A stretch of 35,897 bases of DNA from the IMG/VR virus record IMGVR_UViG_3300031788_000059, positions 1 to 35,897 of that record; one strand, 5' to 3'. This DNA comes from a virus. Below are positions 5,144-35,894 of this stretch, one piece after another. Each line of letters opens with the position of its first letter. Position 1 is the stretch's first letter. Below the pieces are notes generated by a model that saw only the letters and a program-made list of their open reading frames with translations, searched no databases and was not told where the DNA came from. The position numbers and the translations under genes are program-made.

Positions 5144-5547
5144 TATCTTAATCTTTGGCTTTCCATAATAGGCAAATTAGCTTCTGTGGGTACATAAACA
5201 ACTTGCATTTGGTTAGTTTGTAATCCCTGAATCCAAAGATAACGCAAATATCCTTCATTTCCACTTAATGAATCTCCAATAATTTTGTTAGCTTTAGCGA
5301 CTCCTTCAGCTCTTATAACTTCCGCATCTGCTAATGATTTTGCCGATTCTTTTTTAGCCACAGCTTCTAGCGTAGCGATCTGTCGGTTAGATTCTGCCCG
5401 AGCAAGTTCAGCTTCTCCAACTTTGCTTTGTTGCCATACATTCATTATCGGATCTATAAAATTGTTATAAATCCAAAGAGGAAATATAAATGCCAATATT
5501 ATTAGCAAGCATATTCCTTTGATCGTCTTTACATTATCTTCGTCCAT
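5143..5547 (-). CDS. Miniature SPFH/band-7-like membrane protein
   Basis: This 134-aa protein has one N-terminal transmembrane helix (residues about 9-30, IKGICLLIILAFIFPLWIY). It is followed by an Ala/Glu-rich coiled coil (AESNRQIATLEAVAKKESAK) and a C-terminal stretch (ANKIIGDSLSGNEGYLRYLW, ending VVYVPTEANLPI). That arrangement matches the anchor, coiled-coil and tail parts of prohibitin/SPFH proteins, while the globular SPFH domain itself is missing. It should sit in the host inner membrane and could oligomerise. A role in membrane scaffolding, or in modulating a host SPFH-protease complex, is conceivable but unproven. It is coupled to its neighbours by TAATG. Confidence 0.7.
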   Translation of the reverse strand: MDEDNVKTIKGICLLIILAFIFPLWIYNNFIDPIMNVWQQSKVGEAELARAESNRQIATLEAVAKKESAKSLADAEVIRAEGVAKANKIIGDSLSGNEGYLRYLWIQGLQTNQMQVVYVPTEANLPIMESQRLR

Positions 5548-34270: not shown

Positions 34271-35894
34271 TTATGGTCCGCCGAGGCTAGAAAGCCGCGT
34301 GCAGGTAACGTTTCTAATCGCTGTATCTTGCGTAATAGCCTGTGCTTGGGCGAACTTAACCGCCAAGGTTGCATTTTGCGCGAGCATTCCAGAATAATAT
34401 GGATCACGATAAATCAAGTTCATGGAATAACCATCTTGATTTATGTGTGTGACTGCTTGTTTACCTAATACGGTATTATAATATACATCATTTCCATTGG
34501 CCGAAGCTCCACGAGCTACGGGTGCTTCTGAGCTGGTCAGAATTCTAATATTGAATACTGAACCGTACTCAGATGGAAGAGCACTACTATTATTTGGCTT
34601 TCTGTTACTTTTATGACCTATTTCTAGGCGGGGTTCCCTCTTCGGAGATCCCTCCGTGATTTCATTTATAGTCACGGTTCAGACTGTTGCATCACCTTTC
34701 GGTGTCTTCTCGCTCAGTCGTTCACGCTGCAAGAGCATATTGCTCAGCTTGCGCCTCGTTACCCCATCGGGCTTCCGAGTCAATCAGAGAAGATTTTAGA
34801 ACTACACAAAGTTTATAGTTCCACTGACTTAAAAAGCCTGCACCTGTCAGACCATCGAAATCAGTTTGGAGCTCTGTAGAGCTGAGCATAAAATATGCAG
34901 AGCGTACAGGGCCTGTCATTCTGTTACTTTTTTGACCTAGTTACATCTCATTACATTGCTTACAACTAGGCGGAGGGTCTTGTTATTCCCCTCTCACGAC
35001 CTTTATTTATTCGTCGTGTTCAGACTATCGCATACGTAAGTTAAAGGATGTTCATCTCTAAAATTCTTTAGTTCTTCGGTAAAATTTCCTAGATTATTTC
35101 TAAAGAACTCTAATTCTCTTCCTTCTCTTTCGTCCTCAGGATTTAGTCGTTCAGGCTGGTTATTATTGCAGGAAGGATCGCATCGATATACATCTGTATG
35201 CGGATAATTTACACAGGGAGTATCATCTGTTAAAATTTTTCTACATATGTAACATTCTTCCATAAACATAATCTTGCCCCTTGTTAACCTTCTGCTATGC
35301 AGCAAGGCACTCCAAGTCAATTACCCAAGGTTTTACTTCGGCACATACTTTACCGAATCTATCCATTCCCTCAATACCGCTCATGAATTTATAAGCGTTA
35401 TTGGTATCAAGTGTTGTAGCTACAAGGCTAAAATCCGAGACTCCAAGGTTAGTTGGGTTGTCTCCGTTAGATCCGCCTCCTGCATTGATTTCAGATGCTG
35501 CGGAGACGATGTAATCTCTTAATATTAAATCTTCTGCTTGGCGCATAGCTACTGCTAAACGTTCTGATACCCATGCTAAGACGCCTTCTTGGTCTTGTAA
35601 AATTACTTGTTCGTTAATTATGCAGCCTGTACCAAAAAAGGCCATTTGCGCATCAATAATATCACGTTGTGGGACTTGAGCCGGCGGATCAATCCCCGAA
35701 TTCCCCAACTGTATAGTCGGAGGTTGTAAGGCACGAGGCCTCATAAAGCGACAAGTAGTTCCGCCGTGTGAGGGCATGCTAACTTTGTCACAAATCGTAA
35801 TGTAATTCATGGTTGGCGTAGGGACATAGAGCATTGCAGGCGCTAAGGACTGCAAAATAATTGGCCCCAAATTGCCATTAGTCGTAATCGACAT
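34271..35894 (-). CDS. Major capsid protein, N4-gp56 type, three exons
   Basis: Exons on the minus strand are 35894-35301 (198 codons), 34916-34815 (34 codons) and 34597-34271 (108 codons plus stop), all phase 0. The joined product is 340 aa. Landmarks of the N4-gp56 major-capsid family are RFMRPRALQPPTIQLGNSG, the AQMAFFGTGCIINEQVILQD strand pair, and the helix ERLAVAMRQAEDLILRDYIV. At the C-terminus NLIYRDPYYSGMLAQNATLA is followed by TQDTAIRNV. The joins read ...DLECLA-TGPVRSAYFML... and ...FLSQWNY-PNNSSALPSEYG..., giving an unbroken family sequence. The intervening segments are two group I introns. As the most abundant virion protein, it depends on splicing for expression. Confidence 0.85.
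34598..34814 (-). ncRNA. Group I intron 2 in the capsid gene, 217 nt, no ORF
   Basis: The 5' site follows GAACTAT, which pairs with GTAGTTC inside the intron (P1) with the expected U-G pair at the splice site. P3 is CTTCTC/GAGAAG. P6 is a GCAAG...CTTGC hairpin. P7 is GACTG/CAGTC (TGAACGACTG and ACAGTCTGAAC). P8 is CACC-GAAA-GGTG and P9 is CCGTGA...TCACGG. The intron ends in G (AACAGAAAG). Removal restores the capsid frame. Few group I introns are this small. Confidence 0.88.
34917..35300 (-). ncRNA. Group I intron 1 in the capsid gene, 384 nt, with ORF
   Basis: P1 pairs exon CTTGCT with intron GGCAAG, with a U-G at the splice site. The P7 strands TGAACGACTA and ATAGTCTGAAC share their cores with intron 2. 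P9 ACGAC/GTCGT, the hairpin CCTAGTT/AACTAGG and the 3' end GTAACAGAATG also parallel intron 2. Unspliced RNA would end the capsid after one more codon (GCA TAG). P3-P6 are not clearly resolved because an ORF occupies the core. Confidence 0.8.
35003..35269 (-). CDS. Intron-encoded small zinc-finger-like protein, 88 aa
   Basis: ATG 35269 follows AAGGGG at fair spacing, inside intron 1. The product (MFMEECYICRKILTDDTPCV..., then YRCDPSCNNNQ) has C-x2-C ... C ... C-x3-C, a likely zinc site. A charged helical tail follows (RELEFFRNNLGNFTEELKNF). The frame runs through the ribozyme P7 region and stops after it, so the RNA serves both purposes if the ORF is real. It lacks the H-N-H or GIY-YIG residues of known homing endonucleases. 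It could be a reduced endonuclease, a maturase-like helper or unrelated. Confidence 0.45.
   Translation of the reverse strand: MFMEECYICRKILTDDTPCVNYPHTDVYRCDPSCNNNQPERLNPEDEREGRELEFFRNNLGNFTEELKNFRDEHPLTYVCDSLNTTNK

Follow-up and report, generated by a model that had tools for sequence, protein, structure and literature searches.

Group I introns are well documented in phage genes, with examples from the Bastillevirinae and elsewhere among phages (PMC11878797), and the splicing of introns from capsid and tail genes has been reported for Cluster J mycobacteriophages (PMC3706429). The introns of PMC11878797 are self-splicing and interrupt essential phage genes, as is inferred for those described here. 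They sit in four gene families, capsid being unmentioned in that text, whereas the present family concentrates in one capsid gene, at many sites and with up to five introns per gene. Engineered trans-excision ribozymes and spliceozymes (PMC4094466) show that a group I core can also remove a short segment via P1, P10 and a terminal G. In a separate system, tmRNA (ssrA) tagging, a C-terminal degron is added to incomplete proteins; the E. coli ssrA tag ends in YALAA, and ClpX recognises its C-terminal LAA.

The window analysed here is the whole of a 35,897-nt IMG/VR virus record, in which a minus-strand capsid gene (35894..34271) comprises three exons and two introns. In the list below, R1 is a covariance model built, without the window, from a 34-member alignment of relatives.

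35352..35894, minus strand: capsid exon 1, residues 1-181, ending in GATTCGGT; intron-free relatives read MDRFG-TGPVRS, frame checked
34917..35351, minus strand: intron 1, assigned to group I, 435 nt, AAAGTATGTG...GTAACAGAATG; R1 82 bits, E 3e-19
35003..35269, minus strand: 88-aa ORF inside intron 1, overlapping P6-P9
34815..34916, minus strand: capsid exon 2, residues 182-215, from ACAGGC to AACTAT; supported by intron-free relatives and the spliced frame
34598..34814, minus strand: intron 2, assigned to group I, 217 nt, ORF-less; R1 177 bits, E 1e-42, exact borders from intron-free relatives
34271..34597, minus strand: capsid exon 3, residues 216-323 and stop; supported by intron-free relatives and the spliced frame

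Removal of both introns leaves an open frame for a 323-aa capsid protein, which matches PHROG 1357 (major head protein) at 4e-16; the two outer capsid pieces each match it alone (E 1e-4 and 2e-3). The match to Pfam Phage_capsid_4 is weak (E 0.006) and below cut-off, and GenBank phage records contain no protein match to the window capsid. Genes for a P22-type portal and a large terminase are also present in the window.

Capsid relatives are encoded by 222 IMG/VR stretches. Among the best 80, the capsid is in one piece in 65 and any intron is found in 15; the protein-based sampling of further relatives favoured intron-free genes. Sixty-four one-piece relatives span both sites, reading MDRFG-TGPVRSAYF at the first and SQWNY-PTNASALPSEYGSV at the second (PTNASALPSEY at the intron 2 site). 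As they read straight across both sites, both introns are placed in phase 0 and the borders are fixed; removal of intron 2 joins SQWNY to PNNSSALPSEY in that phase. Two other borders were ruled out: an exon 1 end at residue 197 (P1 UGCCUU/GGGGCA), because those residues are absent from the intron-free relatives, and a 3' splice site after GTAACAG, which would put exon 3 out of frame.

The RNA elements assigned to intron 2 are the following.

34799..34821, minus strand: P1, exon GAACTAT (34821-34815) with GTAGTTC (34805-34799), U.G at the splice site (GAACUAU/GUAGUUC in RNA)
34810-34807, minus strand: P10 strand TTTG, facing exon 3 CAAA (34596-34593), first exon base unpaired
34705..34793, minus strand: P3, TCTTCTC (34793-34787) with GAGAAGA (34711-34705), by alignment to R1
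34724..34779, minus strand: P4-P5-P6, with P4 CTCG (34779-34776)/CGAG (34758-34755), P5 GCCC/GGGG and P6 GCGC/GCGT
34682..34719, minus strand: P7, GACTG (34719-34715)/CAGTC (34686-34682) and a pair across the bulge, enclosing P3' and P8
34704-34693, minus strand: P8, CACC-GAAA-GGTG
34616..34677, minus strand: P9 region, with P9 at 34677-34654, P9.1 at 34654-34630 and P9.2 GCCTA-GAAA-TAGGT at 34629-34616
34598..34619, minus strand: family-wide 3' end AGGTCAtAAAAGTAACAGAAAG, with terminal G at 34598

P10 comprises four pairs after one unpaired base in intron 2 and three pairs in intron 1, whose P1 is UUCGGU/GCCGAA, with U.G at the splice site, and whose terminal G lies at 34917. The minimum-energy fold of intron 2 gives P1 and P4-P9.2 (z -3.2), P3 being missing from it because it is pseudoknotted; the P4-P5-P6 domain is found by covariation, R1 alignment and this fold. 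The structural alignment holds 34 ORF-less members, with the window and the near-identical contig L002 left out, and annotates P3-P9.2 with P7 written as a pseudoknot. In it, 93.6% of cells pair, and sliding the partners lowers pairing to 37-47%; both-sided changes occur in 37 of 50 pairs, a number reached by none of 500 shuffles. All seven P3 pairs have changed on both sides. Two of the six P7 pairs covary and the remainder are invariant, and the P7 bulge adjoins a covarying pair, as expected of the guanosine site. Elsewhere in the window R1 gives only a single chance-level match (E 1), and it has no match on 26 intron-free capsid loci. The structure is thus shown by covariation, and 34814..34598 is almost certainly a group I intron in the major capsid gene, with the related 35351..34917 a second intron of the same group I family; the splicing of both is inferred.

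A preliminary description of the stretch had placed a 217-nt ORF-less group I intron at 34598-34814 in the major capsid gene, which held, with exact coordinates, on the minus strand. Also upheld were its statements that removal restores an uninterrupted capsid sequence in phase 0 (64 intron-free relatives), that P1, P3, P6, P7, P8 and P9 and a splice-site U-G pair can be drawn (P3-P9 are present, and P1 with its U.G), and that gene callers would report three fragments (ORFs of 199, 65 and 134 aa occupy the locus). Its spliced protein of 340 aa was wrong: the product has 323 aa, about 16 of the counted residues are intron 1 read in frame, and the count was too long because the second intron, 35351..34917, had been partly absorbed. 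Its N4-gp56-type label is unsupported, as PHROG 1357 was matched and Phage_capsid_4 only weakly. The comparison with intron-free homologues that it proposed supports the intron, since the residues of the interval are absent from the 64 relatives. It had further held that lack of a covariance-model hit would refute the intron, and this is formally met: the search with Rfam Intron_gpI gave no match in the window. The miss is outweighed by the family model, covariation, intron-free homologues and Rfam matches to relatives.

The silence of Rfam extends to the whole window, both at gathering threshold and at E up to 10, and RF00028 (Intron_gpI) at its threshold has no match on 11 relatives' loci. 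In L101, however, RF00028 scores 28 bits over its full model length with the same helices, and it is above threshold in five of eight bacterial loci with the family's 3' pattern, four of them at R1 sites (L202, L206, L208, L210). These matches attribute the silence to a sensitivity limit of the generic model, and their coincidence with R1 sites indicates a group I sub-family that has diverged, rather than a new class of ribozyme. RF00028 has the same P3-P9 core and pseudoknot, and its above-threshold matches include Thiotrichaceae relatives that share the 3' end. The window introns differ in scoring below its detection, and the family in its strongly conserved 3' end (GCCTA..TAGGTCAnAAAAGTAACAG) after P9.1/P9.2 and in its in-frame tail. 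Outside the capsid gene, the family is found in Thiomargarita and other Thiotrichaceae, where members in L206, L208, L210 and L202 interrupt an apparent iscU-like gene.

The window contains two copies of the 3' pattern TAGGTCAnAAAAGTAACAGA, against a chance expectation of 0.02 (up to 3 mismatches), and at least 119 IMG/VR stretches carry this pattern. About 98 of the 119 loci that it draws also encode the window-type capsid, mostly in pieces, and R1 counts 227 introns in loci so drawn. Insertion points lie at dozens of positions along the capsid protein, and in L140 (4045-7070, minus strand) and L398 (1500-5081) each capsid gene carries five full introns and one coreless insert. The window introns belong to a large phage family that targets the capsid gene at many sites. 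LAGLIDADG-like ORFs are found in introns of some relatives (L003, L015) and in a large intron at residue about 121 in L163, L184, L194, L437 and others, with one Pfam match, a weak one, among them. The window introns contain no homing endonuclease gene: intron 2 lacks an ORF of its own, and the 88-aa ORF of intron 1 has no Pfam or PHROG match.

Three further observations concern the family at large. Small, mutually unrelated ORFs, with a window counterpart at 35003-35269, lie in P6 or P8 of many relatives' introns, often directly after AACAAGGGGCAAG(A)TTATG, and it is possible that the conserved core doubles as a ribosome-binding site. A CRISPR spacer (TAATAGGTCATAAAAGTAACAGATTGGCCGAA) of Anaeroglobus geminatus F0357 (L207, about 5286-5306, minus strand) matches the conserved 3' end, and is read as host immunity directed against the intron. 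Among the contigs of a Methanomicrobiales MAG, L203 encodes the window-type capsid with several family introns; it is probably a phage contig in the bin.

In both window introns, the exon frame continues into the intron and stops there.

34722..34814, minus strand: read-through frame from exon 2 into intron 2, KLCVVLKSSLIDSEARWGNEAQAEQYALAA and stop
35295..35351, minus strand: read-through frame from exon 1 into intron 1, KVCAEVKPWVIDLECLAA and stop

The intron 2 frame ends in NEAQAEQYALAA (EQYALAA, stop) and that of intron 1 in KPWVIDLECLAA (IDLECLAA, stop), placing a C-terminal ALAA or LAA on the incomplete product in both cases. The YALAA or LAA terminus on an incomplete protein is shared with tmRNA tagging and the ClpXP LAA degron; unlike the tmRNA tag, the tail is encoded by the intron in frame with the exon rather than added by tmRNA. 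No report of intron-encoded ssrA-like tags was found in the open-access literature searched, a body that leaves out most subscription papers.

In a first set of relatives, the exon frame stays open into P4-P5 in 78 introns, 47 of which end in AA directly before the stop (AA-stop); the same stretch gives AA-stop in none of 18 introns in which it is unread (other frame or earlier stop). The tail hypothesis was formed on this sample, and the test was fixed after it; the independent check is therefore a second set only, drawn with other 3' patterns, in which AA-stop occurs in 44 of 68 read introns and 1 of 7 unread ones (p 0.014, with only seven unread). The combined figures are 91/146 (57 of them LAA-stop) against 1/24 (p 3e-8, uncorrected for shared descent), and the unread controls are few and mostly related. 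The baseline for AA-stop is 0.26% in short random frames and 2.8% in long ORFs. The exon enters the tail frame in 154 of 170 introns, including 41 of the 48 not in phase 0, where the P1 loop differs in length by just the amount needed to keep the frame. Phase calls rest on P1 pairing, and an error of one base is possible where either of two U's would fit; in L014, L066 and L075 the phase was checked manually on either side. What is shown, on evidence that is sequence-based throughout, is the tail signal and its coupling to the reading frame, together with the borders, structure and family.

The signal is not uniform. AA-stop is lacking in 38% of read introns, many of which end V/A-hydrophobic-S/N/C. 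P5 and P6 helices overlap the Ala codons, and RNA structure could account for part of the signal; several unread introns have as P5 the tetraloop-receptor sequence CCUAAG..UAUGG, which would give a stop in the tail frame. The test could not be used in other genes, which are too mixed with capsid exons. A second end pattern, E/V-V-A/V-F/I/L-S/N/C before the stop (TEVVFN, TVVALS), recurs in many relatives (e.g., L105, L119, L186); a single unread intron has it too, and an RNA motif rather than a second tail is therefore possible.

Some relatives carry in addition inserts too short for a group I core. Three capsid positions (residues about 90, 94 and 105) hold such inserts, 17 distinct ones of 30-47 nt, none of them in the window (L140, L163, L184, L194, L398, L437, L512, L527, L530, L531, L534, L537, L539, L540, L543, L546 and L563). 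They have a P1 of 7-9 bp with U.G, a P10 of 4-7 bp from the first 3' exon base and a terminal G; extraction required the terminal G, and P1 was part of the search pattern for later site-94 members. The first inserts at all three sites turned up as gaps in the capsid frame. Their removal restores that frame, and read-through ends in AA-stop in all 17, in three via the out-of-frame next exon. Full introns lie downstream in the same gene in all nine loci found by insert-specific patterns, and R1 cores are present in 13 of 13 insert-bearing loci searched, against any intron in 15 of 80 capsid relatives. Translational bypass of the T4 gene 60 type was ruled out, as matching take-off and landing codons are lacking: at site 105 the take-off codon GGT would be met by ATG or AAG ahead of the resumed frame, and at site 94 the hop would delete a conserved Ile. 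It is possible that the coreless inserts are natural mini-introns spliced by a neighbouring core, an inference for which splicing has not been shown. The ribozymes of PMC4094466 are man-made; if the inserts splice, they would be a counterpart in nature. For coreless group I introns of natural origin, the open-access literature searched, with most subscription papers outside it, likewise gave no report.

In the proposed mechanism, the intron RNA would fold into a P3-P9 core, and an external G would cut after the U of the P1 U.G pair; splicing of intron 2 would join SQWNY to PNNSS, and intron 1 would be spliced likewise. Before splicing, a ribosome trailing RNA polymerase would read from the exon into the intron and end in the ssrA-like tail, as predicted for both window introns and most family members with an open frame. 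The tail would then send a truncated, possibly poisonous capsid fragment to ClpXP-type proteolysis. This marking is inferred: destruction of the tailed fragment has not been shown, with neither the hosts nor their tmRNA tags identified. The tail nonetheless likely has a role at the protein level, and the same grade applies to the capsid group I intron and that role taken together, without splicing or stability data. A bolder joint reading, that the introns encode a frame-matched cleanup tail, with P1 length adjusted to phase, and that relatives' cores splice the 30-47-nt mini-introns, is one we lean slightly against.

The rival that survives best, still unlikely, is an ordinary group I intron in which the in-frame stop only halts the ribosome before it unfolds the core (translation-coupled splicing), AA being a by-product of P5/P6 RNA. 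In its favour, the splicing of T4 introns is dependent on translation upstream of them (cited in PMC11878797), GCNGC doubles as part of a P5 hairpin, and in ORF-less forms GCAGCGTGA coincides in part with conserved P6 and J6/7. Against it, AA-stop is found in P5 loops, P6, hairpin-less forms and coreless inserts, within 45 different tails in which the third positions of both Ala codons vary freely; it arises even from normal exon read out of frame (L437, L530, L398), and it is nearly absent where the stretch is unread (1/24). A second rival, that the tail serves a function other than degradation, such as efficient termination and ribosome release at that point, seems very improbable. It is favoured by the absence of degradation data, and C-terminal residues and stop context are known to affect termination as well. 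However, with dozens of capsid insertion points the truncated products have only the tail in common, and LAA is what ClpX reads. The absence of any intron (the capsid gene being disrupted or misassembled, or the insertion being read through frameshifting or bypass) has only the silence of Rfam on the window for it and is all but excluded, as the same element, structure and 3' end recur in hundreds of independent contigs, removal always leaves an intact capsid frame and covariation supports the RNA structure.

The reading preferred here, a group I intron with a tail acting at the protein level, reveals a large phage intron class that standard annotation has missed, with the result that capsid genes are called as fragments. 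To our knowledge, no natural non-autonomous group I introns have been described; the inserts, if they splice, would be the first. If the tail acts as proposed, the intron would carry its own quality-control tag, and the family would show by what means selfish introns, inserted in a structural gene that is essential and highly expressed, avoid poisoning their host where translation follows transcription.
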